Source: Siphonodentalium dalli (taxonomy: Eukaryota; Mollusca; Scaphopoda; Gadilida; Siphonodentaliidae). From it: a stretch of DNA of 64,000 bases. The notes beneath the pieces are model-generated. The model was not told the DNA's origin and searched no databases. It saw only the letters and a program-made list of their open reading frames with translations. Position 1 is the stretch's first letter, and each line of letters opens with the position of its first letter. Below, piece by piece: positions 756-64,000 of this stretch. The stretch covers positions 38,290,194 through 38,354,193 of the forward strand of contig CP136069.1 in NCBI GenBank assembly GCA_032622095.1. Direction: 5' to 3'. A program made the position numbers and the translations under genes.

Positions 756-976
756 ATGCAGGTTACAAAGACATACACACAGAAGGAGTTTTTCAAACTT
801 TGTGGAACAACAATGCAACGTTCAAATTGTTCCCATGCGGTAGATTTATTAAATTACTCAAGGTTATTGCCCAAGTTTGGAAATCAGATATTATTGAGAC
901 ATCAGTCATCCCCACCCACTGAAACGAATACCCCAGAAGGTGCTGACGGATGACATGTCTCACATTTACATTGCAG

Positions 977-1006
977 AAACTCTCAGAAAAAGCGGCCGCT
1001 CCACTG
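977..1006 (+). other. Candidate 30-nt microexon
   Basis: A plausible 3' splice site (cacatttacattgcag, ending at 976) is followed by exactly 30 nt containing a gcggccgc octamer, then a consensus donor gtaagt (1007-1012). In one frame the segment reads within MSHIYIAETLRKSGRSTG. The segment is unchanged in every unit (19167-19196, 36964-36993, 54758-54787). No family is recognised and no partner exon could be assigned. A chance match is possible. Confidence 0.25.
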
Positions 1007-1012
1007 GTAAGT

Positions 1013-1778
1013 AAATTATGTTTAATAATTTAGATGGAACATTCTGGGTTAGAGCTAGCTTCGTCATCGCTGGTCGGCCTATATATCGGCATAATGCGTC
1101 ATCCACCTCACCAACTTAGCCGCATGAGGTTCATCAATGTTACAACACGAAATCCATATTTCGGAATTTAGTGACTCTGAAGCAAATTTTACATTATTTT
1201 GACTGGGATGATGGGGAAATTCCCAAATAATTTGAAAGAACGTTTGATTCATCCCTAACTTTTACCCAAAAAACAAATAAACACTTTGAAACGTCATGCC
1301 GGACACAACATTGGTTCGAAATTTAAGAGCAAATATAGGATGAAATTGTTCTGATAGTTTGCTTTGTAACGAACATCTAAAAAAATCCTGTGGCAGCCAT
1401 TATTGACTGTAAAAATCTCATAACAATAAGCCCATGCGTGTTCCTATGGCACCAGACGAATAACACGGCGTCAGCGAACTCACCTCTATGGACGGTGTAA
1501 ACTGTTGTGTAAAGGGACCCAAAGGCACTCGAAGTGAGTGAGTGTGCAAAATATAAATAAAAGTCTGTAAAAACGTCACTATTATGAAGGACACGAATAA
1601 ATAAACAAATTTTGTTCTTATATAAATTATAAAAAGTTATCCAATAATTAACTGTCGCGTGTTGAAATCATTGTAAGGTAAACAAAACTGTTACAGTGAT
1701 TTGTCAACATGCTAATCGCGTAGGAAGTTCAAATATTTTATTCCAAATATTATTTTGAGAATATGCTTCAATGCTTAG
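1013..1778. other. AT-rich stretch without recognisable features
   Basis: There are many stops in all frames, scattered AATAAA-like strings and a short gagtgagtgagtg run near 1530. I see no gene or mobile-element ends. The corresponding stretches in U2-U4 are equally featureless. Confidence 0.6.
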
Positions 1779-2034
1779 ACAAGCCTTGAAATAGTGTGTC
1801 TGTCATTTGCAGAATGAGGTCCCCAGGGGGTGAATTTAGTGATGCTACCCCACATAGCGGGCTAGCATCACCAAATTCACCCTCTGGGGATCTAATTCTG
1901 CTTACACCTGAGCAGAATGAGGTTCCCAGAGGGTGAATTTGGTGATGCTAGCCCGCTATGCGGGGTAGCATCACTAAATTCACCCTCTGGGGACCTCATT
2001 CTGCAAACGACAGACACACTATGTCAAGGCTTGT
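1779..2034. repeat. 256-bp double-hairpin palindrome (U1)
   Basis: The whole block is a near-perfect inverted repeat: acaagccttga...tgtgtctgtc...ttgcagaatgagg at the left, mirrored by cctcattctgcaa...gacagacaca...tcaaggcttgt at the right. Each half is itself a hairpin, so four copies of a ~45-bp motif (gaatgaggtcccc...gggtgaattt.gtgatgct) alternate in orientation around acctgagca. This looks like a foldback-type element or MITE. No flanking duplication is clear. Confidence 0.85.
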
Positions 2035-2236
2035 GCTTAGACCTTTTACAATTTTTCATTGCTTGATGACAGTTGTTTTACAAACATTTATAATATTTAT
2101 TTTATTTTTACGTGAACCCACTGCAAATGTATTATGTCCCTTTAAAGAAGATCCGTATGATTTGACTCCATATCCTGAATGTGTGTCTGTTCGAGACAGT
2201 CCAATCATACACCTCTATACTGACCGTTTCAGATAA
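2021..2236 (+). CDS. Small ORF with signal-peptide-like N-terminus (U1), unknown
   Basis: 71 codons from an ATG inside the right arm of the double-hairpin. An N-terminus with R3 and R7 is followed by a 22-residue hydrophobic core (residues 9-30). A short polar tail holds two cysteines (C39 and C54), prolines and acidic residues (CPFKEDPYDLTPYPEC), and the ORF ends in TDRFR-stop. This composition fits a secreted or membrane-anchored first exon, but there is no recognisable family and no strong start context. The ORF is open in all units. The only coding difference between U1 and U3/U4 is SPIIHL versus SPIVHL. It could equally be a chance ORF. Confidence 0.25.
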   Translation: MSRLVLRPFTIFHCLMTVVLQTFIIFILFLREPTANVLCPFKEDPYDLTPYPECVSVRDSPIIHLYTDRFR

Positions 2237-2373
2237 GTTTTCATAATTCTCATAACTCTCATATCGTTATTACATTCCCCAATCTGCCAGAAACTGAATT
2301 CACATCCACATTTTTAAAAGCCATCCTATACCGTGCGGTGTGACTAAACACCGCCCGGACCAGCCCGGACCAG

Positions 2374-2652
2374 CCCGGACCGCCCCTGTGGAGTATAGGG
2401 GTGATTTTAGTGGCAATATATGTGCAGGTGTGTCATGGAAACCCACACACGCACGGGCAGGGGTCGCGATCACACAGAAGTGTCGCTATAAACCCTCAGA
2501 ATATGTTCGCCGCGAATGAAGCTAACAACCCGGACCGCCCCTGTTGCGTCTATGGGTGATTTTAATGTCCATATATGTGCGCGGGTGTCAATGAAACCCA
2601 CATACGCACGGAGTGTGGTCACGGCCAAACAAAAGTGTCGATATTAACCCCT
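2374..2652 (+). repeat. Diverged direct duplication, period about 155 bp
   Basis: Segment 2374-2497 (cccggaccgcccctgt...gtgattttagtg.caatatatgtgc...aaacccaca.acgcacgg...agaagtgtcgctataaaccct) is repeated, diverged, at 2529-2652. It is preceded by a short 10-bp tandem (cagcccggac, about three copies, 2351-2386). Other units: 20564-20842, 38361-38639 and 56155-56433. No coding function is apparent. Confidence 0.75.
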
Positions 2653-2746
2653 AAACTTGCCGTGTAGTGGCGTGCCTCTTTCTCATGGTGTGTTAATTGA
2701 CATCGTGGACACTCCGACGCACCGTTCTCCTATGGAATCCAGCGCC

Positions 2747-3147
2747 TTAACCCTTTACCCAACAAAACGGCCAAAACCGGCCAAATAAAGCTTCAACAGC
2801 CTAAAATATCTTCGGTCTGTCTCAATAGAACCATACAAATATGGATATCATTGGAACCGGCTCCTTGACCACATTGTGATAGTTACAGTTATGCCCTGTG
2901 CCAATGCATTCTCTTATATATGCGAGTCGACCATAGGTCGCCTCGCATATATAAGAGAATGCATTGGCCTAAACAAAATCTTTTTTTAACACTTTTTACC
3001 ATTTGTTTCTTACATTCTTTAACAATTTTATAATTTTTAATGTGTTAAGCCAATGCATTCTCTTATATATGCGAGGCGACCTATGGTCGACTCGCATATA
3101 TAAGAGAATGCATTGGTATAGGGCCGTTCTGTTGGGTAAAGGGTTAA
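2747..3147. mobile_element. piggyBac-like MITE, 393 bp, with TTAA target duplication (U1 only)
   Basis: The element spans 2751-3143 and is flanked by TTAA at 2747-2750 and 3144-3147. Terminal inverted repeats start CCCTTTACCCAACA and end TGTTGGGTAAAGGG, extending to about 22 bp with one mismatch. It encodes no transposase. Inside are two ~68-bp palindromes (about 2903-2968 and 3050-3116) built from gcattctcttatatatgcgag. U2, U3 and U4 have a single clean TTAA at the same point. A TTAA duplication with CCC-ended TIRs is the known signature of the piggyBac superfamily; the assignment beyond that is inference. Confidence 0.9.
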
Positions 3148-3162
3148 TTTATTAGCTTTCTA

Positions 3163-3700
3163 TACCATCCCTGGGCAAGTGGTCCATCTAATCTGCTATG
3201 ATCCTGGTGTCCCTGCTGAATTGATATGATCCTGGTGTCCCTGCTGAATTGATATGATGCTGGTGTCCCTGCTGAATTGCTATGATGCTGGAAGGCAAAC
3301 TGATGCCGTTACGACAAAATACCGATATGTTTTCCAATGTTGTCATTTTCTCGGTGTTTGGCTAATCCGAGCAATTTGAGAACAAATCGTGTCTGTATGA
3401 AACATCAAGAACATATGTATTCAATTCAATAATGATTGCGTTGGTGTTTGCAAAACGGCCTGAATAGCCATCTTGATTATAGTCGAATTGCAACAGATAA
3501 TACAACCAGTATTAACATATATATAAATATGTTTTTGAATGTGTTCAGATTATCCGAATACCGCGAAATTGAAAACTTTAGACAAAATCACGGTACTTTT
3601 TCTTAACAGCATCAGTTTGCCTTAACATGCATCACCATAGAAATTCAGCAGGAACCACCAGCATCATAGCACATTAGCAGGACCTCATAACCAGGGTGTA
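3163..3700. mobile_element. Inverted-repeat element with internal minisatellite (U1)
   Basis: The left end (taccatccctggg..agtggtccatctaatctgctatgat...ccctgctgaatt...aaggcaaactgatgccgtta) is mirrored imperfectly by the right end (ttaacagcatcagtttgcc...aattcagcagg...catcatagcacattagcaggacc...ccagggtgta). Arms are about 110 bp around an AT-rich core of some 300 bp. It has no coding capacity, so it is MITE-like. A target duplication is not clear. Confidence 0.65.
3197..3290 (+). repeat. 28-bp minisatellite, three full copies plus a partial (U1)
   Basis: Period 28 (tatgatSctggtgtccctg + ctgaattgM), with copies starting at 3197, 3225 and 3253 and a truncated fourth at 3281. The first two copies carry cctgg and the last two gctgg. 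U2-U4 have two full copies plus a partial, all of the gctgg type. Confidence 0.9.
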
Positions 3701-4071
3701 CAAACACCATCGTCATTTTCACTAAAATCTGTTTCCAGAGGCGATATTTCGTGGGAGAACATGAATCAGTAATTTATTACGTGGGGAGGGGGGGGAAGGG
3801 CGGAGTTAAACTGCGATTACGCGGATTATAGGTCATTATTGGTTTTGAATTGCACGTGGTCGCCGGTACCAGGTTTAAAGGGGAGACACACGTTTTGCAT
3901 AAATCCAGCAAAAAATGGCAAGTGATTTTCAACAAATAGTTTCTCTGGATTTATCTGGCAAACAATCTCGAGTTTTTCATATCAGCATCTTCATTGTATA
4001 TATAATCTGAGCAGTTATCAAGAGGCAAAAAAAAATGGAATTTAATACATTTGAGGGGGTGAAAATATTAT

Positions 4072-4310
4072 TTAATTTTGTTCTCCCTTTCGGTACCAAG
4101 AACTGCTAGAATAATTAATAATTTCACACAAAACTGCATCACCAAATAGCTTATTGCCTTGGCTCCATGAAAGGAGGCTTCATATCTTTCATAAAGTTGA
4201 GTTAGAATTGTAATTGCATAATATAGCATCATACCCCCCATATATTACAATGAAGAATAAAGCAGTCACAATATTCCAGCCCAATAGAAAACAGATGTTG
4301 ATATGCAGTG
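4072..4310 (-). pseudogene. Broken copy of the two-helix ORF (U1)
   Basis: Homologous to the open frame at 21812-22078, but with single-base deletions (aactgcatcacc for aactgcaatcacc, cacaatattcc for cacaaatattcc). A deletion of about 60 bp at 4310/4311 removes the N-terminal end. If the ORF ever was coding, this copy is dead. Confidence 0.4.
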
Positions 4311-5477
4311 GTGGCCAGCTTTAACTTGATTATGAAAACATGACCCATGCATAGGGGTGGCTTTCCGATAGTGTTTTGTTGTTTCATCAGGATACCAATC
4401 ATTTAATTGTACTACATGTAGATTGCATTCACCATATGCAGTGTCACATATTTATAAACACCCATTTATCCCGATACACATGAACAAATTATGCACAGGT
4501 GAAGTGAGAGGCGTGGATATATGTGGTCTGGTCTGTGCTGAGGTTGGTCTGTGCTGAGGTTATCCAAATAGGAAATCCAGCTGCACCCCATTTGAGGCAG
4601 ACCGAAATATCCTAGTCTTAAAATGTCATTTGCGCCCCCCCCCCCCCCCCCGCTGCAATTGAAATTATCCAACTGATGGCCATTTTAGTCCAAACCCATT
4701 GACATAAAGTAGGAACATATTCAACTTTTCGTCGAAAAGCAAACCATTTCACACTAAATACTGGTTGGAGTAGCAACATATCAGATCAAATTTTAACCTA
4801 GTTTTGCTGTGAAATGTTGTGTCAGTTATGCCATTTCCAAAAGATCTTATATTTGTTTAACTTTCGAATCCGGTTAAAATTGCTTCCGCGGAATTAGAAT
4901 TAAAATTTGTCACGTGGCAGTCACCTCACATATGGACAAATCTCACATTCGAACATTTCGTTCTGATTAATTATCTGTATTGGCCTCCAGAGCACAACAG
5001 TAACAACAAATCGAATACAAGTGTTTCATTAATTTTGCCTCCATAATACAAATACTAATAACAGCTAATTATATTAGCACTCGCACCAATCGTACCAAAC
5101 ATCTATTATGTAGTGGCATTTCTTAAATACAAATTTTCCTCGACCAGTAGCCAACCTCGTTCTAGCCCGATAATCTCTGGAAGGCAATACATATTACGTA
5201 CCTCAAAACTTATCACCATGTAAATACGTTTGTATCGTCATCTTGATTTCATGTGTGTTGCTATATTGTATTGGGAGAGGTTCTTCATAAGTTGTAAGAA
5301 ATTGTGCCCCAGTCCCTTTTGTATATTATGCAAATAAAATATGTTTCAAGTCAAGTCATGACATTTCCAAATGTTAAACGATTTAGCCAAAACTCCACGT
5401 GTCACCAAGTTTATTTTTGGAATAGAAAGTCAGTTGAATTTCGCGTGTCTTCGGTGTTCATTCAGTCAGACGAAACA

Positions 5478-5482
<5 letters not shown>
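4311..5482. other. No gene seen; poly-C tract and duplicated 14-mer
   Basis: Contains tggtctgtgctgaggt twice in tandem (about 4528-4560) and a poly-C tract near 4635. The poly-C differs in length in every unit: U2 22434-22444, U3 about 40231-40242, U4 58023-58040. Otherwise AT-rich with no supported gene. The matching stretches of U2-U4 hold the same. Confidence 0.6.
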
Positions 5483-5542
<60 letters not shown>

Positions 5543-5548
5543 TCTCTC
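5483..5548 (+). repeat. (TC)n microsatellite (U1)
   Basis: Long (TC)n run interrupted near its end by ccc. Serine/leucine repeat ORFs here are artefacts of the repeat. Confidence 0.95.
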
Positions 5549-6684
5549 ACACTCCCCGCCTCTTGCTATCCCTAACACTATCTTCTCCCAGTTTCCATCC
5601 CTAACTGAAACTTAGTTATATATCTCCATTTCTCCTAAAAAACATTATACAATCCTTTCCCGTCTGATCGATACCCCTCCCTCACTTATTGGGGAAGGGG
5701 CATGTCGCCAAAGAGGAGAATACTTCATATAAGCCCTCGGGCTTGTTGTCTGATCCCCATTTCCATACATTAACTCTTCTATTTTAGCATATTTGTATCA
5801 TCTGTATATTATGTTATGTTGGATTTGAAAATAAACATATGTTTACACCAAACATGCATGGCATTCGTGGCACCAAAACCAGCGTGAAAACGTCTACATG
5901 AATCATCGAAAGTATCGCATTCTACAATACATATAAATATACAAGTAGGGATATTACATGATGTATTAGAGCAGGAGTGAACATTGAGTGTAATCATTTC
6001 AACACTATGAAGTTTCCAATAATTAGCAATATCTCCAACTCAAATTGCAATTTCATGTTGATATTTTCACCGAGATGTAATTATAAGTAATAATCTCGGT
6101 TCCCTAGTACAGTTACAGTTTAATGCCATCTTACCGATTAACAAACCCTTCATAAATTAGGGCCCTGTGAATCTGCACTTTTCCACAAATGCGAAATCCG
6201 ATATTGAATCAGGACTCGGGAGGCAGATGTCAATATGGAAAAGCATCTCGCTGGGGGATAACATCCTCGTAGTCGCAAGACAATCGAGATCCATACAATT
6301 CTTCATGCGCGATATACTCCTCTGTTGTAGAACCGGGGAAAACGCAGTTGTACCAGCACCAGCAGCTCGTCGGAGGACATGACCTCATCGACCACTAGCT
6401 CACTTGCTGACTGCACTGATGATTGATGGTGAGTATCTCCCGATAAACACACACTACCAAATTCTACCAATCACTTCAAACCGGGTGGTTCGTGTTGCTA
6501 CAGCTATACAGGTGATGATGCAGATGGATCATAAAATTCCCTGTCTGTTGGTTTTTACACAATTATAAAAGCTACGATTTCTTTATATGGTTAATATAAT
6601 AGCTATTCGTTACTGTTACCAGTGGTAGTTCATTGTGCAAAAAGTCTCCATTGAACTCTAGGGCTCGTATTCACCAACTGAGTT
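5549..6684. other. No supported gene
   Basis: AT-rich sequence with short, inconsistent ORFs. A 5-6 codon region around gaaccggggaaaacgcagttg is open in all units but does not align to anything I recognise. A gatggtgagtat donor-like string occurs near 6427. Counterparts in U2-U4 are the same. Confidence 0.5.
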
Positions 6685-6784
6685 TATGTACATGTATATA
6701 GTCCAGGTAGTTTATACTAGGCGGGGCTCAATGCGGAGCTATATATATGATGGCTGTCGATCGGAGATATATAATTATATTGTA

Positions 6785-6945
6785 TCTCACGTGACTTACC
6801 CGCCTTCTGATTGGCTGATAGCTGTACCCCTATTCCGTGTAGTGTTCGATCGTAAGATGGTCGACACTACACCCGGGCACTTCACACATGTAGTCCACTA
6901 CACACATGTAGTCCCGGCCATATTACGTTTGTGACGTCACGGCTT
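6785..6945. promoter_or_regulatory. Promoter-like cluster: E-box, inverted CCAAT, CRE (U1)
   Basis: Within 155 bp lie cacgtg (E-box, 6788-6793), attgg (inverted CCAAT, 6810-6814), a hairpin gtgtagtg...cactacac (6837-6872), two copies of cacacatgtagtcc (about 6892 and 6902) and gtgacgtcac (CRE palindrome, 6931-6940). The density of classical promoter elements is higher than elsewhere in the unit. No TATA box position or start site can be fixed, and no convincing gene lies on either side. Confidence 0.3.
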
Positions 6946-7676
6946 TGCGCTTGCAGTTGAACACTTGTGATTCATGCTATGTACCCTATGTGGTACAAAT
7001 GTATGAGGGGACGAATTCCACCTAATATTGCAATGCCCGTGTTTAAAAGACCTGCGAGTCAAATACATAAACAAATACTATTATTGTAGACCAAACACCA
7101 TCAAATTAAGCGAACATTTTAATGTAAACGACGTAAAACCTTGAAAACCTTTCTGTATTCATTAGACGGGTCCTGATTTTATTCAAAAACTCCTGAGGCA
7201 TACTATATACGCAATACATCAAAATCCGTCTTTTGTACATCTATGGGCTGTTCTCAATCAACTGTTTTATTAAAATATGTGTAATTTTCACCGCGCACCA
7301 CTTTTGTAATTTGCACAGAAATGATATGCACTGTTCAATTGTATACCACCACGCCCTATTGTGTCATATTTGACGATTTGAGTGAATAAATAATTGAATT
7401 GAATTGCTAAATGATTGAACATTCGATATTGTTTGCGTTATACGGAGTTAGCTGAGTTCACCAAATTTCCAGAATTTTTGGTTTTGTTGTTCGTACTGTG
7501 AGCGGAATCTTTGCGGTCGTTTAATTATAAACGTTATACACACAACAGCGCTTCCGTATTTTACTTTGTCTCAAAAAGTCGCTCGACTACCGGATGCAAA
7601 TTTGACAAATTCGCGTCCTTATTTTCGTTTGTTTTTGTACATTTCTAAATGGTAAGATTTTCCTTCTTCGTTGTGG

Positions 7677-8003
7677 TCACTTCGTTGTGATATACCAGGT
7701 TGAAATATTTATAATGTGAGTGAACACAGTGAACATGTCAATTTGATCTTGAACACGTTGCAAATCAACTTCGAATTGCGAGATTCGTAAATGTAACAGG
7801 CCTCCATATATAAGGCAATATGTCACCAGCGTTGTTGATAACACACGTTGTTCAATACAATATAATGAATAGAGCATGTCTTGTAGTTGACTACGCCAAC
7901 TTAGTGCCCGGTGGGAGTGATGTAGTTGCCCAAACTCCATGCAGGGTTTACCTCCCTTGACGACTCGGTAAGACCGCAGATACCGGCGAAATTTTACACA
8001 CAA
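7677..8003 (-). CDS. 108-codon open frame, unknown
   Basis: Reads MCVKFRRYLRSYRVVKGGKP at the start and ends STWYITTK. The N-terminal half is basic, followed by a mixed hydrophobic middle (TYCLIYGGLLHLRISQFEVD). It is open in all units (25477-25803, 43271-43597, 61087-61413). The changes I see between U1 and U2-U4 (STT/STK, DMF/DKF) alter the protein, so there is no sign of purifying selection. No family is recognised. It may be chance. Confidence 0.15.
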   Translation of the reverse strand: MCVKFRRYLRSYRVVKGGKPCMEFGQLHHSHRALSWRSQLQDMLYSLYCIEQRVLSTTLVTYCLIYGGLLHLRISQFEVDLQRVQDQIDMFTVFTHIINISTWYITTK

Positions 8004-8153
8004 AATGTGTGTAAATTTGGACCGTAAGTTTGAAATGTCCCACTAAAACCGAAGAACTATATTTCGAAACGGTGTGATTCGGTTCTCCGATTACGTTATC
8101 ATCACAAACGTCAAAACGCACGTGTACGACACTGTCACAACTCGCACGGCAAG

Positions 8154-8315
8154 TCAAACACAAGAGTTATAATTTGCTGCCATTTTGAATTGTAGCTTGC
8201 GAAAATCGTCAACAAAACTATCGCTCTGATTTTCCATTCTGTCATTATGTTCAGTGCGGGAATTGTTCTCAATGCTCATAGAAAATTTGACTTTGGAGCG
8301 CTCGGGTTTCGCCAT
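8154..8315 (-). CDS. 53-codon open frame with good start context, unknown
   Basis: Starts in aaaaATGG (Kozak-like) and reads MAKPERSKVKFSMSIENN onward, hydrophilic and acidic in the second half (QSDSFVDDFRKLQ). It could be a first exon pointing toward 7677. U2-U4 differ from U1 by two amino-acid changes (K to Q, S to C) and no silent change that I can see. No family is recognised. Confidence 0.15.
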   Translation of the reverse strand: MAKPERSKVKFSMSIENNSRTEHNDRMENQSDSFVDDFRKLQFKMAANYNSCV

Positions 8316-8536
8316 TTTTGCTGGAAAACCCCATGCTAAATATAGAAACACAGACTAGTACACAGCCGGTGACAGAGTCAGAAATGAAATATGACTGGTG
8401 CGCTCTAGTAGAGGTTGGTAGTTGCCAACGCGAAGCGGAGGTTACTACAACACTCCCAAGCGGCACTAAATTATCAACTCCAAACCATGCTCAATTCATT
8501 AAATAGTTTATTGGATAATATAGTACATTTATATCG

Positions 8537-8794
8537 GTGGAAAAATACATGCATATCTGTATAATAAATTTATATTATCCGGGCGAAGCCATGGTCATGT
8601 TGGTCCTCTTCTTGGCAACGCCCAGGTATATTAGAACCACTGCACTCCTATACTCCCCAAAGACATTTACTGTATCTCAAGTTTTGCTAGAGTTCCTAGA
8701 TCAGGATGCAAACTATGAATTATGTGAATTGGTTAGAATTTCATGTTATTGTATCATGAATTGTGGTGGAAGGGTTAAGAATTATTTTTCTTAA
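8537..8794 (+). CDS. 85-codon open frame, unknown
   Basis: Identical in all four units (26337-26594, 44131-44388, 61947-62204). It includes PGEAMVMLVLFLATPRYIRT and a cysteine-rich C-terminus (CELVRISCYCIMNCGG). Identity reflects the general identity of this half of the unit, so it is not evidence of selection. A 10-bp inverted repeat (ggataatata/tatattatcc, 8513-8580) overlaps its start. Confidence 0.12.
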   Translation: MEKYMHICIINLYYPGEAMVMLVLFLATPRYIRTTALLYSPKTFTVSQVLLEFLDQDANYELCELVRISCYCIMNCGGRVKNYFS

Positions 8795-8888
8795 CTTATT
8801 TACCAACATTATGTTGAATTATTTCTTTATGGATTCAATTATCCAGAAATTATGACCTTCACGTATATTGAACACTTGTCTTTTTCAG

Positions 8889-9064
8889 AGGAAATGTGGT
8901 CTGGAGATTTGGAAGTTACTTGGTGACCGGTAGCTGCATCATGTGCTTATCAACCAAGACTCATATTTGCCATCGATGTATTGAACTAACTACCTCACAT
9001 GATGAAGACCCAATACTACCATCAATGTATTAGACTAACTACATCACCATTAGAATGAAATAAA
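8889..9064 (+). other. Terminal-exon-like segment with polyadenylation signal
   Basis: A pyrimidine-rich acceptor (gtctttttcag, ending at 8888) is followed by a frame open for about 48 codons, ending DPILPSMY-stop near 9030. AATAAA follows at 9059-9064. The layout resembles a 3' terminal exon of a non-coding or unknown transcript. The same segment occurs in each unit at +17800 (U2), with further copies in U3 and U4. Evidence is weak. Confidence 0.2.
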
Positions 9065-9138
9065 TTCATCATCTCAAATATTGTTATTTTCTTCTGCTGT
9101 ATGCTTCTACAGCGAATCGCAAACTTCATGCCTCAAAT

Positions 9139-9260
9139 TAAACACCGTGGCTGGATTCTTCATGTACGGTTTAACGACGGGAGTTGCGCTGGTGCAGCAT
9201 TCTAGATAATGTGCCAGTGCAGTCCCTTATACATACGAGCTAGTCTCCCATAGTATTAAC
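9139..9260. repeat. Decayed relative of the TTAA-MITE family
   Basis: Contains taaacaccgtggctgga, then gcgctggtgcagcattctagataatgtgccagtgcagtcccttatacatacgag, a decayed version of gccagtgcattctcttatatatgcgag seen in the MITEs. Similar strings flank the MITE at 17939 (aagctggtgcagcattagc near 17893) and occur at 16660 (taaacaccacggctgga). Copies in U2-U4 at corresponding positions. Confidence 0.45.
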
Positions 9261-9426
9261 TAAATATTGACAATTGCCACAGCTTATTCGCAGAAAACAC
9301 CATTATCTATTGGGGTGGGGTGGGGTGTACAATGACTCAATGCCTTCGAAGTGGGTTCATGCGAAATAACAAGAAAGCCTGTATAACAGCACCCATCTTA
9401 TGAGATTTTGCATGTCAAAACCATTG

Positions 9427-9592
9427 ATATAAGGATTAACTGTCATGTGGACTGTTTTTTATGGAGATGTAACCGTGAGGTAAGTGGTCATAACTTGTGT
9501 AAAACCAGAAGGGTTTTACATACAAGTTATGAACACTTACCTCACGGTTACATCTCCATAAAAACAGTCCACATGACAGTTAATCCTTATAT
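9427..9592. repeat. 166-bp near-perfect hairpin (U1)
   Basis: Arms of about 80 bp run from atataaggattaactgtcatg to its mirror catgacagttaatccttatat, with a 5-nt loop near 9507. There is one mismatch, a 2-nt bulge and one T-run length difference. Flanking TA dinucleotides allow a TA-target MITE. A long pre-miRNA or siRNA hairpin is the alternative. Confidence 0.85.
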
Positions 9593-11256
9593 TTATATAC
9601 ATTTAGCGAAAAAGCCACTTTTGTAAAAAAAAAAGTGTATCGTGACAAAACCAGCCCAAAATATCCCATAGCACCCTTGGCAAAAGTTAACAGGAAAAAA
9701 AAATTCTTTATATTGAAACCTGATGATTTAATTTAAGTCAATCCTGCGCGAGTCCAAATGCGCCCAAAACATTACGCGTTTTTCTTTCCGGTATCAATGA
9801 CTTATCGATGTAATTATGGGCTTGCAGTTATGAGCTGTTGCGCGTTCACCGAGAAATAACTGCAACTAGTCACGTGGGCGCCGACCAATCGAAATGCTGG
9901 ATTTAGTGATAATCACACTTAGTATGTAAATATATATAAATATTACTGTTACAGTGGAATTGTCGATAAAAGTCCAATTAGTCAAATAAGATACCAAAGT
10001 GTAAACTAGACGGTAACATTGGAATAGTTCAAAGCAATGGAAACATATCCTCAGTGAAAATCATATCTGGACTAAAACATTCAAACTTACTGTTCGATTA
10101 TCGATGTCTTTTGACAGATCACTGTCACAGTTTTGTTTACATAACACTAGTTTCAACACGCAAAAGTGTGTTATTGGAGAACTATCCATAATGAAAATGA
10201 GAACAAAGTATAGATATTTCTCCATGCTCCAAGTCAATTGTTATAGGTTAAAATAAGTTTTGTTCCCAGGGGAATAGATGGTCTATCTCTTTGTAAACAT
10301 GTATTATATAGTTACCGGGGTATAAAATATTAGATCTGAATCGAAGACTCCTGTCCGAAAATGCTTCTATCGATTAATATTAATTTTATTTCGAATATTT
10401 TCTGGTCTAAAAAGGTGTGGTTGTTTAGCTAACGACCAATAGTGGTTACTGTTAACAGAGACCAGCAATTTTATTGTGTAGTTTTGTCACAAATAAACAT
10501 TAATTATATAATCAGCAACAATCCGATCTCAGTCCCCGTATAGATTTCCATATTCAATGAGGTATCGGTATCGTAGCCGTTATCAACAAATAAATTCGTC
10601 CACGTATATAATACTCCAGAATCATAAAGTTTACATCCGCGGTTTCTGCCACATTATCATTGTCAAAATTGTCAAAATTCCTCCCTTCACCATTTACTAA
10701 TAACAATACGTATATCTCGGCACAAAGTACAATATTCTTCCTTAATATACTCTTTTTTCAACCTCGATGTCCCCAAAATTTCAAATGCACACACGCTTTC
10801 TAGATGCACGAACTAAAACACCGCACTTCGTGTCGCCTCTCGTCATATGTATACGTAATCCAATACGCATAAAGAGCGCTCGTTCAACGATAATTCTCTC
10901 GCACCTTCGCGTAGTATATGTGTTACCTTTGCTGATGCAACGAAAGGACGTTCAATGTATATTATATTGCGTGAAAAATATATTGACTATCACATTGATT
11001 ATTAACTATATTATGAACATCGCTCTTTTATGATTCCCATGTATTTGAGGGCGGCGACCTGTGATATTATATAGTTCGCATGTGACTGTTTCTGTTTGAA
11101 AATATCTTTCGGACAGGCATGTACGATATTTCGTCATTGCTGTGTGTGTTCGGGAGGGTTTATGTGGACACGCATGCCCATGTTCAGATCACATATATGC
11201 ATGGCCGTCATACTAGCGTCTGATAAGTCTTGAACCAGCCAGACGATACAATATAT
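9593..11256. other. AT-rich stretch, no supported gene
   Basis: Poly-A runs near 9626 and 9694 and many short frames. U1 shows only a handful of single-base differences from U2 and U3 here (for example acacGctttc/acacActttc near 10797 and gcaaCgaaag/gcaaTgaaag near 10940). I see no recognisable gene or element ends. Confidence 0.55.
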
Positions 11257-11414
11257 ACACAGAACGACACGATGTGTAAATGGGTTTGTCGATACGGCAC
11301 GAGTGCTGTCGCGGAAGGATAGAACGAGAGGCGCTTGCGCCTCGAGTTTTATCCTTTCGCAACAGCACGAGTGCCGTGTCGACAAACCCATTTACACAAC
11401 GTGTAGTTCTGTGT
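11257..11414. repeat. 158-bp CpG-bearing hairpin (U1)
   Basis: Left arm acacagaacg...tgtgtaaatgggtttgtcga.acggcacgagtgctgt...aggcgc pairs with the mirrored right arm gcctcg...acagcacgagtgccgt.tcgacaaacccatttacaca...ttctgtgt. The loop ttgc is near 11336. There are several mismatches, so it is older than the 166-bp hairpin. Both strands give an ORF starting MGLS[TI]RH, an artefact of the palindrome. Confidence 0.85.
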
Positions 11415-11724
11415 TTATTACACGCTTCGAGTCCTAGAATCCGTGCATTAAAAATACAAGATTAGAAGGTTTATTTAGGCTCATACAGGGCGTGTTTGTC
11501 ATGTGTGATGATTCTTTTATTTAAATAGTTCCAGTTTCATGGTTGAGTCGAACGTCATTTTACGTCAACGAGATGGGTATGGAACGTACGTTCCATACGG
11601 ATTTGTAAATATGGAACAGCAATAACACTGTACTTCTAGGAACAAGCGTGAAATAAATGTGTATCCGATCATATGAATAGGTTTCATTGCCGCGTTAATG
11701 TCTACTCGAGTGGAATTATATAAC

Positions 11725-15465: not shown

Positions 15466-15554
<89 letters not shown>

Positions 15555-16486: not shown

Positions 16487-16496
16487 CAGCAGCAGC

Positions 16497-16541: not shown

Positions 16542-16542
<1 letters not shown>

Positions 16543-18196: not shown

Positions 18197-18202
18197 TTAA
18201 TA

Positions 18203-51059: not shown

Positions 51060-51146
<87 letters not shown>

Positions 51147-52088: not shown

Positions 52089-52134
<46 letters not shown>

Positions 52135-52551
52135 TATACCATTCATACACGTATAAATACCATATATAATTGTTTAATGCCATGTCCATTTTTTTTCACT
52201 TGACTGTTTGGTGAACGGGAGAGAAGTCAAACTGTCTAGTTTGGCATACTAAACACCACGGCTGGAACGCCGCATAAATATCGCTATCAGTTAACCCTGT
52301 TTTTATCCTGAATTATTGTTCGTCTTGGCATGTTTGTTTAAACAAGATTTCTCTCACGACTCAAGCGCCGTAACTCTATCTCTAATTGGTTCGCGCGAGA
52401 TATTGGTCAGAAATTTTAATACGAAAGGGAATGGTTTGTCTGTGTCAAGCAAGCATAATGACCATAGTTGTACGGGTCCGGTGGTGGTGGAGGGGTGGGC
52501 GGTGGTGGGCTCGTTCGGTTCTGAGTTTGTTGCTGCCTGATTTTGAACAGT

Positions 52552-53271: not shown

Positions 53272-53529
53272 GGTGGTGAGGTTGAAAAGGACATTTCAGA
53301 TGTCGATGTGGTGCGGTGGTGGATTACATGGAATTACCTGGTTACTCCTAAAAGGAGGTTGCTCATATGTGGGCGTAAAGAAGAACAAGTAAGTAAGATA
53401 TTCACAGTGTGACAGGAAGTGGAACCTGGGTGAACATTAATTTGCAAGTATGTATCACTGGTTAACCTTTTTACGGCGGGAGCCAAGCTGGTGCAGCATT
53501 AGCGATCCTGTGTCATTATATATATTCAA

Positions 53530-53787
53530 CCTTCCATGGCTGGAGCTTACTGGAATTTTGCCCAAACTATGTGCCAAATCCATTCGTTTATTTATGACAG
53601 TCTTCCGTAGGGAGCCTCGCGTATACAGCAGAATGCACTGGCTTACAATGTCCAGATAAATATTGTTATAGGCCAATATGTATTCTTTTATGCGAGGCTC
53701 CCTATGGGAGACTCGCGTATATCAACGAATGCCTTTGGCACAGCTAGATTTTGCGCAAAATCCCAGTAAGCGGCAGTCATGGAAGGG
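53530..53787. mobile_element. Second TTAA-type MITE (U3)
   Basis: Same as 17939-18196, with TTAA at 53788-53791. Confidence 0.75.
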
Positions 53788-55559
53788 TTAATATATATTG
53801 TTTTGCAGAACGTGCTATTTCAGAAATACCGGTATATATGGTGTTGACTTTCATTAACAAGACCAGGGGCGCCGGAGGATAGGGTGCAGGTGGGGGGGGG
53901 GGGTACAGATATGAAACGAAACATTGCAATTTTGCCATTGCTGATACATTTATATTTGACAAGAATCGTTATTTTATAATTTTATTGAAGATAGCATTTA
54001 AACTCAACTTTGATTATATCGGCTTTTTAAATATAGTTAGGCAGCACCACGCAGGCTCCTTAGTGAATTTGGTTTTCAGTATAAATGCGATATTGACCTT
54101 AAAATGCGGCATCAATTCGTCAATTCTAAAACAATCTCTAATTTCAAACTATCGATTTGAACTAAATAATCATTATCCTTTGTAACAAATGTATGGTTTA
54201 GTATTATAACAAACATGGCCACATTCACAATATGAAAGATAACACATCCTAATTATGTAAAAACAAATAGATGATTTTATTTAGTAAAACCACTTTGTCA
54301 CATAATTAGAACATATCGCTCACATTGTGAGGTTGGTCAGGTGTTGCGAGAGTACGAAATCATACATTCGTTATGGAGGACAATGATTTTTAGAGAGAGA
54401 GAGAGAGGGAGAGAGAGAGATAGAGAGATATCTTTGTTACCTCCACGTATAGGAGAGATCGATATACATGACATATAAATACAGTTGGATTAAAGTGGGC
54501 CCCCCTGGCCAGTGTGGTGGGCCATTATGTACAAGTATGCAGGTTACAAAGACATACACACAGAAGGAGTTTTTCAAACTTTGTGGAACAACAATGCAAC
54601 GTTCAAATTGTTCCCATGCGGTAGATTTATTAAATTACTCAAGGTTATTGCCCAAGTTTGGAAATCAGATATTATTGAGACATCAGTCATCCCCACCCAC
54701 TGAAACGAATACCCCAGAAGGTGCTGACGGATGACATGTCTCACATTTACATTGCAGAAACTCTCAGAAAAAGCGGCCGCTCCACTGGTAAGTAAATTAT
54801 GTTTAATAATTTAGATGGAACATTCTGGGTTAGAGCTAGCTTCGTCATCGCTGGTCGGCCTATATATCGGCATAATGTGTCATCCACCTCACCAACTTAG
54901 CCGCATGAGGTTCATCAATGTTACAACACGAAATCCATATTTCGGAATTTAGTGACTCTGAAGCAAATTTTACATTATTTTGACTGGGATGATGGGGAAA
55001 TTCCCAAATAATTTGAAAGAACGTTTGATTCATCCCTAACTTTTACCCAAAATAAAATAAACACTTTGAAACGTCATGCCGGACACAACATTGGTTCGAA
55101 ATTTAAGAGCAAATATAGGATGAAATTGTTCTGATAGTTTGCTTTGTAACGAACATCTAAAAAAAATCCTGTGGCAGCCATTATTGCCTGTAAAAATCTC
55201 ATAACAATAAGCCCATGCGTGTTCCTATGGCACCAGACGAATAACACGGCGTCAGCGAACTCACCTTTATGGACGGTGTAAACTGTTGTGTAAAGGGACC
55301 CAAAGGCACTCGAAGTGAGTGAGTGTGCAAAATATAAATAAAAGTCTGTAAAAACGTCACTATTATGAAGGACACGAATAAATAAACAAATTTTGTTCTT
55401 ATATAAATTATAAAATGTTATCCAATAATTAACTTTCGCGTGTTGAAATCATTGTAAGGTAAACAAAACTGTTACAGTGATTTGTCAACATGCTAATCGC
55501 GTAGGAAGTTCAAATATTTTATTCCAAATATTATTTTGAGAATATGCTTCAATGCTTAG

Positions 55560-55815
55560 ACAAGCCTTGAAATAGTGTGTCTGTCATTTGCAGAATGAGG
55601 TCCCCAGGGGGTGAATTTAGTGATGCTACCCCGCATAGCGGACTAGCATCACCAAATTCACCCTCTGGGGATCTAATTCTGCTTACACCTGAGCAGAATG
55701 AGGTTCCCAGAGGGTGAATTTGGTGATGCTAGCCCGCTATGCGGGGTAGCATCACTAAATTCACCCTCTGGGGACCTCATTCTGCAAACGACAGACACAC
55801 TATGTCAAGGCTTGT
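55560..55815. repeat. 256-bp double-hairpin palindrome (U4)
   Basis: Appears identical to the U2 copy. Confidence 0.85.
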
Positions 55816-56017
55816 GCTTAGACCTTTTACAATTTTTCATTGCTTGATGACAGTTGTTTTACAAACATTTATAATATTTATTTTATTTTTACGTGAACCC
55901 ACTGCAAATGTATTATGTCCCTTTAAAGAAGATCCGTATGATTTGACTCCATATCCTGAATGTGTGTCTGTTCGAGACAGTCCAATCGTACACCTCTATA
56001 CTGACCGTTTCAGATAA
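55802..56017 (+). CDS. Small ORF with signal-peptide-like N-terminus (U4)
   Basis: 71 codons, identical to the U3 copy. The same caveats apply as for 2021-2236. Confidence 0.25.
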   Translation: MSRLVLRPFTIFHCLMTVVLQTFIIFILFLREPTANVLCPFKEDPYDLTPYPECVSVRDSPIVHLYTDRFR

Positions 56018-56527
56018 GTTTTCATAATTCTCATAACTCTCATATCGTTATTACATTCCCCAATCTGCCAGAAACTGAATTCACATCCACATTTTTAAAA
56101 GCCATCCTATACCGTGCGGTGTGACTAAACACCGCCCGGACCAGCCCGGACCAGCCCGGACCGCCCCTGTGGAGTATAGGGGTGATTTTAGTGGCAATAT
56201 ATGTGCAGGTGTGTCATGGAAACCCACACACGCACGGGCAGGGGTCGCGATCACACAGAAGTGTCGCTATAAACCCTCAGAATATGTTCGCCGCGAATGA
56301 AGCTAACAACCCGGACCGCCCCTGTTGCGTCTATGGGTGATTTTAATGTCCATATATGTGCGCGGGTGTCAATGAAACCCACATACGCACGGAGTGTGGT
56401 CACGGCCAAACAAAAGTGCCGATATTAACCCCTAAACTTGCCGTGTAGTGGCGTGCCTCTTTCTCATTGTGTGTTAATTGACATCGTGGACACCCTGGTG
56501 CACCGTTCTCCTATGGAATCCAGCGCC

Positions 56528-56531
56528 TTAA
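56528..56531. other. Empty TTAA insertion site (U4)
   Basis: Same uninterrupted agcgccTTAAtttatt as in U2. Confidence 0.9.
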
Positions 56532-56546
56532 TTTATTAGCTTCCTG

Positions 56547-57033
56547 TACCATCCCTGGTCAAGTGGTCCATCTAATCTGCTATGATGCTGGTGTCCCTGC
56601 TGAATTGATATGATGCTGGTGTCCCTGCTGAATTGCTATGATGCTGGAAGGCAAACTGATGCCGTTACCGACACAATACCGATATGTTTTCCAATGTTGT
56701 CATTTTCTCGTTGTTTGGCTAATTTGGGAAAAATCCGTGCCTGTATATGAAACAACAAGAGCATATGTATTCAATTCAATTCAATAATGATTGCGTTGGT
56801 GTTTGCAAAACGGCCTGAATAACCATCTTGATTATAGTCGAATTGCAACATATATATAAATATGTTTTTGAATGTGTTCAGATTATCCGAATACCGCGAA
56901 ATTGAAAACTTAAGACAAAATGACGGTACTTTTTCTTAACAGCATCAGTTTTCTTTAACATGCATCACCATAGAAATTCAGCAGGAACCGCCCGCATCAT
57001 AGCACATCAGCAGGACCTCATAACCAGGGTGTA
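56547..57033. mobile_element. Inverted-repeat element with internal minisatellite (U4)
   Basis: Same as the U2 copy with one extra C in gttaccgac. Confidence 0.65.
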
Positions 57034-57400
57034 CAAACACCATCGTCATTTTCACTAGAATCTGTTTCCAGAGGCGATATTTCGTGGGAGAACATGAATC
57101 AGTAATTTATTACGTGGGGGGGGGGGGGCGGAGTTAAACTGCGATTACGCGGATTATAGGTCATTATTGGTTTTGAATTGCACGTGGTCGCCGGTACCAG
57201 GTTTAAGGGGAGACACACGATTTGCATAAATCCAGCAAAAATGGCAAGTGATTTTCAACAAAGAGTTTCTCTGGATTTATCTGGCAAACAATCTCGAGTT
57301 TTTCATATCAGCATCTTCATTGTATATATAATCTGAGCAGTTATCAAGAGACAATAAAAACAACGGAATTTAATACATTTGAGGGGGGTGAAAATATTAT

Positions 57401-57667
57401 TTAATTTTGTTCTCCCTTTCGGTACCAAGAACTGCTAGAATAATTAATAATTTCACACAAAACTGCAATCACCAAATAGCTTATTGCCTTGGCTCCATGA
57501 AAGGAGGCTTCATATCTTTCATAAAGTTGAGTTAGAATTGTAATTGCATAATATAGCATCATACCCCCATATATTACAATGAAGAATAAAGCAGTCACAA
57601 ATATTCCAGCCCAATAGAAAACAGATGTTGATATGCAGTGTGGTCCACTCAAGCAGAGAGTAATCAA
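57401..57667 (-). CDS. Open frame with two hydrophobic segments, unknown (U4)
   Basis: Identical translation to the U2 copy. Confidence 0.25.
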   Translation of the reverse strand: MITLCLSGPHCISTSVFYWAGIFVTALFFIVIYGGMMLYYAITILTQLYERYEASFHGAKAISYLVIAVLCEIINYSSSSWYRKGEQN

Positions 57668-58862
57668 CTTGAATTAGGCCAGAGTTTTAAGAGAAATGGT
57701 GGTCAGCTTTAACTTGATTATGAAAACATGACCCATGCATAGGGGTGGCTTTCCGATAGTGTTTTGTTGTTTCATCAGGATACCAATCATTTAATTGTAC
57801 TACATGTAGATTGCATTCACCATATGCAGTGTCACATATTTATAAACACCCATTTATCCCGATACACATGAACAAATTATGCACAGGTGAAGTGAGAGGC
57901 GTGGATATATGTGGTCTGGTCTGTGCTGAGGTTGGTCTGTGCTGAGGTTATCCAAATAGGAAATCCAGCTGCACCCCATGTGAAGCAGACCGAAATATCC
58001 TAGTCTTAAAATATCATTTGCGCCCCCCCCCCCCCCCCCCGCTGCAATTGAAATTATCCAACTGATGGTCATTTTAGTCCAAACCCATTGACATAAAGTA
58101 GGAACATATTCAACTTTTCGTCGAAAAGCAAACCATTTCACACTAAATACTGGTTGGAGTAGCAACATATCAGATCAAATTTTAACCTAGTTTTGCTGTG
58201 AAATGTTGTGTCAGTTATGCCATTTCCAAAAGATCTTATTTGTTTAACTCTCGAATCCGGTTAAAATTGCTTCCGGAATTAGAATTAAAATTTGTCACGT
58301 GGCAGTCACCTCACATATGGACAAATCTCACATTCGAACATTTCGTTCTGATTAATTATCTGTATTGGCCTCCAGAGCACAACAGTAACAACAAATCGAA
58401 TACAAGTGTTTCATTAATTTTGCCTCCATAATACAAATACTAATAATAGCTAATTATATTAGCACTCGCACCAATCGTACCAAACATCTATTATGTAGTG
58501 GCATTTCTTAAATACAAATTTTCCTCGACCAGTAGCCAACCTCGTTCTAGCCCGATAATCTCTGGAAGGCAATACATATTACGTACCTCAAAACTTATCA
58601 CCATGTAAATACGTTTGTATCGTCATCTTGATTTCATGTGTGTTGCTATATTGTATTGGGAGAGGTGCTTCATAAGTTGTAAGAAATTGCGCCCCAGTCC
58701 CTTTTGTATATTATGCAAATAAAATATGTTTCAAGTCAAGTCATGACATTTCCAAATGTTAAACGATTTAGCCAAAACTCCATGTGTCACCATGTTTATT
58801 TTTGGAATAGAGAGTCAGTTGAATTTCGCGTGTCTTCGGTGTTCTTTCGGCCAGACGAAACG

Positions 58863-58867
<5 letters not shown>

Positions 58868-58949
<82 letters not shown>
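58868..58949 (+). repeat. (TC)n microsatellite (U4)
   Basis: Same locus, clearly the longest allele in the window. Confidence 0.95.
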
Positions 58950-58951
<2 letters not shown>

Positions 58952-60199
58952 ACACACACTCCCCGCCTCTTGCTATCCCTAACACTATCTTCTCCCTGTT
59001 TCCATCCCTAACTCAAACTTAGTTATATATCTCCATTTCTCCTAAAAACATTATACAATCATTTCCCGTTTGATCGATACCCCTCCCTCACTTATTGGGG
59101 AAGGGGCATGTCGCCAAAGAGGAGAATACTTCACATAAGCCCTCGGGCTTGTTGTCTGATCCCCATTTCCATACATTAACTCTTCTATTTTAGCATATTT
59201 GTATCATCTGTATATTATGTTATGTTGGATTTGAAAATAAAAATATGTTTACACCAAACATGGCATTCGTGGCACCAAAACCAGCGTGAAAACGTCTACA
59301 TGCATCATCGAAAGTATCGCATTCTACAATACATATAAATATACAAGTAGGGATATTACATGATGTATTAGAGCAGGAGTGAACATTGAGTGTAATCATT
59401 TCAACACTATGAAGTTTCCAATAATTAGCAATATCTCCAACTCAAATTGCAATTTCATGTTGATATTTTCACCGAGATGTAATTATAAGTAATAATCTCG
59501 GTTCCCTAGTACAGTTACAGTCTAATGCCATCTTACCGATTAACAAACCCTTTATAAATTAGGGCCCTGTGAATCTGCACTTTTCCACAAATGCGAAATC
59601 CGATATTGAATCAGGACTCGGGAGGCAGATGTCAATATGGAAAAGCATCTCGCTGGGGGATAACATCCTATAGTCGCAAGAAAATCGAGATCCATACAAT
59701 TCTTCATGCGCGATATACTCCTCTGTTGTAGAACCGGGGAAAACGCAGTTGTACCAGCACCAGCAGCTCGTCGGAGGACATTACATCATCGACCACTAGC
59801 TCACTCGCTGACTGCGGTGATGATTGATGGTGAGTATCTCCCGATAAACACACACTACCAAATTATACCAATCACTTCAAACCGGGTGGTTCGTGTTGCT
59901 ACAGCTATACAGGTGATGATGCAGATGGATCATAAAATTCCCTGACTGTTGGTTTTTACACAATTATAAAAGCTACGATTTCTTTATATGGTTAATATAA
60001 TAGCTATTCGTTATTGTTACCAGTGGTAGTGTTCATTGTGCAAAAAGTCTCCATTGAACTAGTTATAAAACTCTAGGGCTCGTATTCACCAACTGAGTTT
60101 ATGTACATGCATATAGTCCAGGTAGTTTATACTAGGCGGGGCTCAATGCGGAGCTATATATATGATGGCTGTCGATCGGAGATATATAATTATATTGTA

Positions 60200-60360
60200 T
60201 CTCACGTGACTTACCCGCCTTCTGATTGGCTGATAGCTGTACCCCTATTCCGTGTAGTGTTCGATCGTAAGATGGTCGACACTACACCCGGGCACTTCAC
60301 ACATGTAGTCCACTACACACATGCAGTCCCGGCCATATTACGTTTGTGACGTCACGGCTT
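60200..60360. promoter_or_regulatory. Promoter-like cluster (U4)
   Basis: Same motifs as U2, with the CRE at 60346-60355. Confidence 0.3.
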
Positions 60361-62836
60361 TGCGCTTGCAGTTGAACACTTGTGTTTCATGCTACGTACC
60401 CTATGTGGTACAAATGTAGGGGACGAATTCCACCTAATATTGCAATGCCCGTGTTTAAAAGACCTGCGAGTCAAATACATAAACAAATACTATTATTGTA
60501 GACCAAACACCATCAAATTAAGCGAACATTTTAATGTAAACGACGTAAAACCTTGAAAACCTTTCTGTATTCATTAGACGGGTCCTGATTTTATTCAAAA
60601 ACTCCTGAGGCATACTATATACGCAATACATCAAAATCCGTCTTTTGTACAACCATGGGCTGTTCTCAATCAACTGTTTTATTAAAATATGTGTAATTTT
60701 CACCGCGCACCACTTTTGTAATTTGCACAGAAATGATATGCACTGTTCAATTGTATACCACCACGCTCTATTGTGTCATATTTGACGATTTGAGTGAATA
60801 AATAATTGAATTGAATTGCTAAATGATTGAACATTCGATATTGTTTGCGTTACACGGAGTTAGCTGAGTTCACCAAATTTCCAGAATTTTTGGTTTTGTT
60901 GTTCGTACTGTGAGCGGAATCTTTGCGGTCGTTTAATTATAAACGTTATACACAACAGCGCTTCCGTATTTTACTTTGTCTCAAAAAGTCGCTCGGCTAC
61001 CGGATGCAAATTTGACAAATTCGCGTCCTTATTTTCGTTTGTTTTTGTACATTTCTAAATGGTAAGATTTTCCTTCTTCGTTGTGGTCACTTCGTTGTGA
61101 TATACCAGGTTGAAATATTTATAATGTGAGTGAACACAGTGAACTTGTCAATTTGATCTTGAACACGTTGCAAATCAACTTCGAATTGCGAGATTCGTAA
61201 ATGTAACAGGCCTCCATATATAAGGCAATATGTCACCAGCTTTGTTGATAACACACGTTGTTCAATACAATATAATGAATAGAGCATGTCTTGTAGTTGA
61301 CTACGCCAACTTAGTGCCCGGTGGGAGTGATGTAGTTGCCCAAACTCCATGCAGGGTTTACCTCCCTTGACGACTCGGTAAGACCGCAGATACCGGCGAA
61401 ATTTTACACACAAAATGTGTGTAAATTTGGACCGTAAGTTTGAAATGTCCCACTAAAACCGAAGAACTATATTTCGAAACGGTGTGATTCGGTTCTCCGA
61501 TTATGTTATCATCACAAACGTCTAAACGCACGTGTACGACACTGTCACAACTCGCACGGCAAGTCAAACACAAGAGTTATAATTTGCTGCCATTTTGAAT
61601 TGTAGCTTGCGAAAATCGTCAACAAAACTATCGCTCTGATTTTCCATTCTGTCATTATGTTCAGTGCGGGAATTGTTCTCAATGCACATAGAAAATTTGA
61701 CTTGGGAGCGCTCGGGTTTCGCCATTTTTGCTGGAAAACCCCATGATAAATATAGAAACACAGACTAGTACACAGCCGGTGACAGAGTCAGAAATGAAAT
61801 ATGACTGGTGCGCTCTAGTAGAGGTTGGTAGTTGCCAACGCGAAGCGGAGGTTACTACAACACTCCCAAGCGGCACTAAATTATCAACTCCAAACCATGC
61901 TCAATTCATTAAATTGTTTATTGGATAATATAGTACATTTATATCGGTGGAAAAATACATGCATATCTGTATAATAAATTTATATTATCCGGGCGAAGCC
62001 ATGGTCATGTTGGTCCTCTTCTTGGCAACGCCCAGGTATATTAGAACCACTGCACTCCTATACTCCCCAAAGACATTTACTGTATCTCAAGTTTTGCTAG
62101 AGTTCCTAGATCAGGATGCAAACTATGAATTATGTGAATTGGTTAGAATTTCATGTTATTGTATCATGAATTGTGGTGGAAGGGTTAAGAATTATTTTTC
62201 TTAACTTATTTACCAACATTATGTTGAATTATTTCTTTATGGATTCAATTATCCAGAAATTATGACCTTCACGTATATTGAACACTTGTCTTTTTCAGAG
62301 GAAATGTGGTCTGGAGATTTGGAAGTTACTTGGTGACCGGTAGCTGCATCATGTGCTTATCAACCAAGACTCATATTTGCCATCGATGTATTGAACTAAC
62401 TACCTCACATGATGAAGACCCAACACTACCATCAATGTATTAGACTAACTACATCACCATTAGAATGAAATAAATTCATCATCTCAAATATTGTTATTTT
62501 CTTCTGCTGTATGCTTCTACAGCGAATCGCAAACTTCATGCCTCAAATTAAACACCGTGGCTGGATTCTTCATGTACGGTTTAACGACGGGAGTTGCGCT
62601 GGTGCAGCATTCTAGATAATGTGCCAGTGCAGTCCCTTATACATACGAGCTAGTCTCCCATAGTATTAACTAAATATTGACAATTGCCACAGCTTATTCG
62701 CAGAAAACACCATTATCTATTGGGGTGGGGTGGGGTGTACAATGACTCAATGCCTTCGAAGTGGGTTCATGCGAAATAACAAGAAAGCCTGTATAACAGC
62801 ACCCATCTTATGAGATTTTGCATGTCAAAACCATTG

Positions 62837-63002
62837 ATATAAGGATTAACTGTCATGTGGACTGTTTTTTATGGAGATGTAACCGTGAGGTAAGTGGTCA
62901 TAACTTGTGTAAAACCAGAAGGGTTTTACATACAAGTTATGAACACTTACCTCACGGTTACATCTCCATAAAAACAGTCCACATGACAGTTAATCCTTAT
63001 AT
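62837..63002. repeat. 166-bp hairpin (U4)
   Basis: Identical to the U1 copy. Confidence 0.85.
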
Positions 63003-64000
63003 TTATATACATTTAGCGAAAAAGCCACTTTTGTAAAAAAAAAAGTGTATCGTGACAAAACCAGCCCAAAATATCCCATAGCACCCTTGGCAAAAGTTAA
63101 CAGGAAAAAAAAATTCTTTATATTGAAACCTGATGATTTAATTTAAGTCAATCCTGCGCGAGTCCAAATGCGCCCAAAACATTACGCGTTTTTCTTTCCG
63201 GTATCAATGACTTATCGATGTAATTATGGGCTTGCAGTTATGAGCTGTTGCGCGTTCACCGAGAAATAACTGCAACTAGTCACGTGGGCGCCGACCAATC
63301 GAAATGCTGGATTTAGTGATAATCACACTTAGTATGTAAATATATATAAATATTACTGTTACAGTGGAATTGTCGATAAAAGTCCAATTAGTCAAATAAG
63401 ATACCAAAGTGTAAACTAGACGGTAACATTGGAATAGTTCAAAGCAATGGAAACATATCCTCAGTGAAAATCATATCTGGACTAAAACATTCAAACTTAC
63501 TGTTCGATTATCGATGTCTTTTGACAGATCACTGTCACAGTTTTGTTTACATAACACTAGTTTCAACACGCAAAAGTGTGTTATTGGAGAACTATCCATA
63601 ATGAAAATGAGAACAAAGTATAGATATTTCTCCATGCTCCAAGTCAATTGTTATAGGTTAAAATAAGTTTTGTTCCCAGGGGAATAGATGGTCTATCTCT
63701 TTGTAAACATGTATTATATAGTTACCGGGGTATAAAATATTAGATCTGAATCGAAGACTCCTGTCCGAAAATGCTTCTATCGATTAATATTAATTTTATT
63801 TCGAATATTTTCTGGTCTAAAAAGGTGTGGTTGTTTAGCTAACGACCAATAGTGGTTACTGTTAACAGAGACCAGCAATTTTATTGTGTAGTTTTGTCAC
63901 AAATAAACATTAATTATATAATCAGCAACAATCCGATCTCAGTCCCCGTATAGATTTCCATATTCAATGAGGTATCGGTATCGTAGCCGTTATCAACAAA

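Follow-up and report, generated by a model that had tools for sequence, protein, structure and literature searches.

The tandem array examined here belongs to the scaphopod mollusc Siphonodentalium dalli, whose genome assembly (GCA_032622095.1) comprises 2,226,750,531 bases in nine contigs. We analyzed 64,000 bp of contig CP136069.1 (C9:38290194-38354193; hereafter, the window). The array is very probably a gene-poor chromosomal macrosatellite (also called megasatellite) that carries remains of mobile elements and that would have expanded recently by unequal exchange after deletion of a spacer. Two kinds of unit carry this conclusion. Short units, designated U0 onward, consist of a 17.8-kb body that abuts the next body directly; long units, found immediately upstream, consist of the same body followed by a spacer of 5.7-8.6 kb.

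Exact-word offsets in the window are dominated by distances of about 17.8, 35.6, and 53.4 kb. Self-alignment of the U1-to-U3 stretch one unit on yielded 99.85% identity over 25.8 kb, with 6 mismatches and 7 gap openings. The similarity between units is far beyond chance. An earlier note, made from the sequence of the window, had described a head-to-tail array with a period of about 17.8 kb and no spacer, which these offsets, the self-alignment, and the exact junctions bear out. Indeed, the junctions it placed at 18945, 36742, and 54536 proved exact when units were aligned and their borders compared. Its count of three complete units and part of a fourth holds as a layout, but U0 is not an equal copy; it is a mosaic with about 393 extra bases. 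Moreover, position 756, where the note began, is not the beginning of the family, since the preceding 755 bases are the end of a spacer from an older long unit. To the right of the window, short units go on to the end of U6 and 4.2 kb into U7, reaching C9:38420180, where they meet 100 N.

The upstream arrangement was revealed by alignment of U1 to C9:38150001-38424000, with 193 bases immediately before the window excluded. Five body copies, one of them partial, are each followed by a spacer, designated S1-S5, with lengths taken from coordinates. Left edges of S3 and S5 are imprecise because they are situated in microsatellite; the first part of S5 lies upstream of the window, from about C9:38282764. 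Long-unit copies reach leftward at least to C9:38150001, the left limit of the region compared. When window positions 1-1250 were compared with other borders between spacer and body, six other long units matched over the whole length at 97-99%, and one further border matched at 96% from position 248 on. Long-type copies in inverted orientation occupy C9:37754507-37800815, at least 0.35 Mb to the left of this region, and end at a run of 100 N.

Comparison of the borders shows how the two kinds of unit differ. In S1, S2, and S4, the three of five spacers with a precise left edge, the body ends in ACAAGT and the spacer starts with ATGGAGAGG. All five spacers end in GGGTTAC, which precedes the ATGCAGG of the next body. 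Short units are joined as ACAAGT followed directly by ATGCAGG. The short unit therefore lacks the spacer between two ATG triplets, with ATG common at the join, and the spacer was presumably removed by one deletion. The 34-nt short junction occurs in 19 exact copies in the genome, all on the plus strand, of which 12 are on a second contig, C8 (90590226-90819554), and seven on C9. None was found on the other contigs, and the same sequence read backwards gave no match.

Further genome searches with DNA probes scored 40 candidates each, so that counts drawn from them are lower bounds. The long-unit spacer gave at least 10 matches, five of full length and five over spacer positions 1-600. Nine of the 10 lie on C9: five upstream of the short units of the window, two among the inverted copies (37.76-37.78 Mb), and two in diverged copies (175.66 and 181.34 Mb). 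The remaining match, at C8:90742623, falls within the C8 array. The diverged copies, which also have spacer sequence (C9:175.66 and 181.35 Mb), speak for the long unit being the older of the two.

A second difference between the kinds, within the body, measures about 6 bp in at least 18 copies (seven on C9, including U0, and 11 on C8) and 67 bp in at least 10 copies (eight on C9 and two on C8); more distant dispersed copies were matched in addition. Judged by coordinates, the two 67-bp copies on C8 are out of step with junction type. The copy at 90.726 Mb lies in a unit whose left border is a short junction (90717362), and the copy at 90.757 Mb lies in a body flanked by a spacer on the left and by a short junction on the right (90766055). 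Judged by probe matches, these two C8 units (C8:90717379-90766055) mix features of both types and look transitional, as U0 does.

The degree of similarity separates the two kinds further. Outside three masked stretches that are of low complexity or replaced, the 21 pairs formed from short units U1-U6 and a single C8 unit show a mean difference of 0.037% in single-nucleotide variants (SNVs); among four long bodies (6 pairs), the range is 0.85-1.75%. Short units have therefore been copied or homogenized much more recently, although we attach no date to this event. Large units of kilobase size in head-to-tail order, combined with such unit-to-unit identity, are the marks of a macrosatellite or megasatellite. 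Of the options listed in the earlier note, a young segmental-duplication array fits.

To type U0, which lies at the border between the two kinds, we used the 239 sites that distinguish long copy D from U1. Up to body position 7500, U0 resembles D at 97 of 137 sites, U1 at 30, and neither at 10; beyond that position, it resembles U1 at 99 of 102 sites and D at three. The switch falls between body positions 7360 and 7503, which correspond to window positions 8505-8648. The simplest reading of these sites is that U0 may have arisen when a long body resembling D and a short body underwent crossover or conversion. The extra segment of about 393 bases (2751-3143 by alignment) follows a TTAA. Its length is similar in B and D, which are long copies, and greater in A; the short units, long copy C, and the C9:181.35 Mb diverged copy lack it. 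The segment is probably a mobile-element insertion. A stretch similar to it is also present after the C9 gap. U1 has a peculiarity of its own, a private stretch of about 42 bp at 20407-20448 that differs from U0, U2, A, C, and D and breaks the alignment of U1 to U2-U7.

The earlier note saw no obvious gene payload in the units, and our searches agree at the level of sequence. When the whole of U1 was scanned in six frames against Pfam, with every stop replaced by X, no family exceeded the curated cut-off. The most informative match below it was RVT_1 in one frame, at a fragment that resembles the reverse transcriptase of long interspersed nuclear elements (LINEs; open frame 35145-35501); the others were DUF3915 and Atrophin-1, both at a single low-complexity site. 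Most of S5, the one spacer scanned, gave sub-threshold DUF3915 and zf-RVT and nothing more. Rfam at gathering scores returned no match in the window, and ARAGORN no transfer RNA (tRNA) or transfer-messenger RNA. Permissive Rfam settings on U1 returned 22 matches, all under their own gathering score and mostly in palindromes and AT microsatellite. An array of ribosomal DNA, 5S, tRNA, or small nuclear RNA genes was thus rejected on the Rfam gathering scores and ARAGORN, and a cluster of histone or other known dosage genes on the Pfam scan of U1. The absence of ribosomal, histone, and other dosage genes had also been remarked in the earlier note.

The open reading frames (ORFs) compared show no clear constraint. 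U1 contains 58 ORFs of at least 70 amino acids, the 40 longest of which were compared across copies. In the 22 ORFs of at least 90 amino acids, 262 changes are non-synonymous and 59 synonymous (overlapping ORFs counted apart), and several ORF copies hold frameshifts or stops. The longest ORF, of 161 amino acids, is within the range of a null model (95th percentile 181) built from 200 first-order Markov simulations.

What the unit does contain is dispersed repeats. All three internal probes, one of which was picked for being a palindrome, have parts that recur genome-wide. The near-perfect palindrome, which resembles a miniature inverted-repeat transposable element (MITE), has at least 16 copies outside the repeat family, at 96-97% identity and distributed over C1-C9. 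A microRNA (miRNA) reading of this large hairpin was rejected because the hairpin is a dispersed element. Positions of these and the other features of the window are collected in Table 1.

Table 1. Units, borders, and repeats in the window (positions counted from its first base)
Feature	Position	Strand	Remarks
End of spacer S5	1-755	+	part of an older long unit; not in the short-unit array
U0	756-18945	+	18,190 bp; transitional, left mostly long-type, right short-type
U1	18946-36742	+	17,797 bp, short type
U2	36743-54536	+	17,794 bp, short type
U3, left part	54537-64000	+	unit ends beyond the window at C9:38362546
Short-unit junction (body end to body start at ATG)	18929-18962	+	same at 36742/36743 and 54536/54537
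Second difference between long and short units	28466-28473	+	about 6 bp versus 67 bp
Near-perfect palindrome, 124-nt arms, MITE-like dispersed element	19969-20224	+	also 1779-2034, 37766-38021, 55560-55815
Internal tandem, 122-bp unit, 2.7 copies	33408-33738	+	also 15610-15940, 51202-51532
LINE-type reverse-transcriptase-like fragment	35235-35420	-	RVT_1 E 6.9e-4, 19.8 bits versus curated cut-off 29.6

These results suggest a model in which the ancestral state was an array of long units, of the kind that lies directly upstream. A deletion by end joining would have created the first pair of bodies without a spacer, and the short unit would then have been multiplied and homogenized as 17.8-kb bodies underwent unequal homologous exchange. 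The mosaic U0 would be a trace of crossover or conversion between the long and short kinds. Growth of the array would be driven by recombination between long identical repeats, not by a gene payload. Several observations weigh against this model. The left part of U0 is mixed, chiefly at 1001-1500, and so is not purely long-type. A four-gamete test on the four informative SNVs of U1-U6 found no recombination; the case for exchange among short units accordingly rests on their similarity. In seven of the 40 ORFs, non-synonymous changes are not above synonymous ones, but each has at most 10 changes, too few for clear constraint on any of the 40. Stop-to-stop ORFs of at least 90 amino acids number 22, in excess of the null (mean 10.3, 95th percentile 16), in a comparison that left microsatellites unmasked and in which several ORFs overlap there. 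Short exons or an unrecognized non-coding RNA would escape the searches. The ORF excess, together with hairpins that have miRNA-like scores (under gathering scores), is what could favor a unit that carries an unrecognized gene or non-coding RNA amplified for dosage. We consider this improbable in view of the lack of any Pfam family above cut-off, the predominance of non-synonymous changes and the broken ORF copies, and the identity of the strongest hairpin as a dispersed element. More improbable by far is that the array is an artefact of assembly, or that it represents a circular element unrolled into a concatemer, the latter among the options of the earlier note. An N gap does stand at the right end of the C9 array, but the left edge is continuous, through transitional U0, with older diverged units of the chromosome. 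Units also have SNVs and microsatellite lengths of their own, differences that the earlier note had seen and that make duplication of a single read path unlikely.

The relation between the C8 and C9 arrays bears on where the macrosatellite resides. Three runs of 100 N cut repeat copies: after C9:38420180, after C9:37800815 in the inverted copy, and before C8:90577455. Being exactly 100 long, these runs are presumably assembly gaps. The C9 array halts within a unit at C9:38420181-38420280, and the C8 array starts within a unit after C8:90577355-90577454, on the same strand. Between U5 and the C8 unit at 90.628 Mb, one of 15502 sites differs when masked stretches are excluded and two of about 15,700 in all. 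These two units are closer than any pair of C9 units, and they have variants in common at body positions 5834, 9727, 9886, and 9934. With both in the same orientation, the C9 piece has a left side and the C8 piece a right side, and each halts inside the array. We lean toward a single C9 array that was cut during assembly, its right part being mis-scaffolded into C8. That nine of the at least 10 long-unit spacers lie on C9 argues for this arrangement, which is compatible with recent expansion of a macrosatellite; against it, the status of the N runs as gaps is deduced from their length. Real arrays on two chromosomes, alike through very recent transfer or interchromosomal exchange, are possible but on balance unlikely. 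They would agree with the assembly as given, with its 12 junctions on C8 and seven on C9, and with the gapless passage of the C8 array into other sequence at C8:90819598, but not readily with N gaps at both ends that would face each other or with the rest of the family being found on C9. If the two arrays are real, it is tempting to speculate that they are homogenized against each other more than are units within one array, by exchange still under way between non-homologous chromosomes over gene-poor 17.8-kb units; we regard this as distinctly doubtful.

Other repeats were observed in and around the family. The 122-bp internal tandem has many more matches in the upstream long-unit region. Long body B, outside the window, contains a 14.2-kb insertion (C9:38218176-38232420). 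Terminal inverted repeats, a target duplication of 6 bp identified by eye, and DNA_pol_B_2 matches in two of five ORFs searched make it appear Polinton/Maverick-like. Among the 40 candidates scored with the spacer probe, five matches to a dispersed repeat of about 410 bp lie 7.4-8.1 kb apart at C8:185806753-185837375, which is perhaps another large tandem array near the C8 end.

The structure appears to be of an ordinary known kind, for which the gene-free human megasatellites of PMC2588610 offer the best comparison. In that source, this class (Table 2D) shows recurring patterns of interspersed mobile elements, and the abstract presumes that expansion occurs by unequal crossing over. These families resemble the S. 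dalli array in having large tandem units that include mobile elements but no gene (here, none recognized), in containing or abutting assembly gaps, and, for some, in residing on more than one chromosome. The S. dalli array differs in organism, in unit length (17.8 kb versus examples of 5.4 and about 6 kb), and in the persistence of the older long-unit array alongside. The human 12-kb array at 8q21.2 (Gor1), as presented in PMC2588610, likewise has a long unit, an assembly gap, and few assembled copies; unlike the array described here, it has one gene per unit, and its size and copy number come from pulsed-field gels rather than from assembly alone. The DXZ4 macrosatellite also forms an uninterrupted array of kilobase-size units that are not obviously protein coding, but its unit is 3 kb, it resides on the human X chromosome, and a chromatin role has been proposed for it. 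Titles and abstract openings, a partial coverage of the literature, yielded no title on a comparable molluscan array.

The array reveals no new system. The chromosome-scale assembly is probably incomplete here and perhaps misjoined, as the N gaps in the array and the near-identical C8 and C9 halves suggest. What the array does offer is a legible series of steps by which a macrosatellite may arise, from an old array with spacers, through spacer loss and fast expansion of the compact unit, to mosaic units where the two kinds meet.

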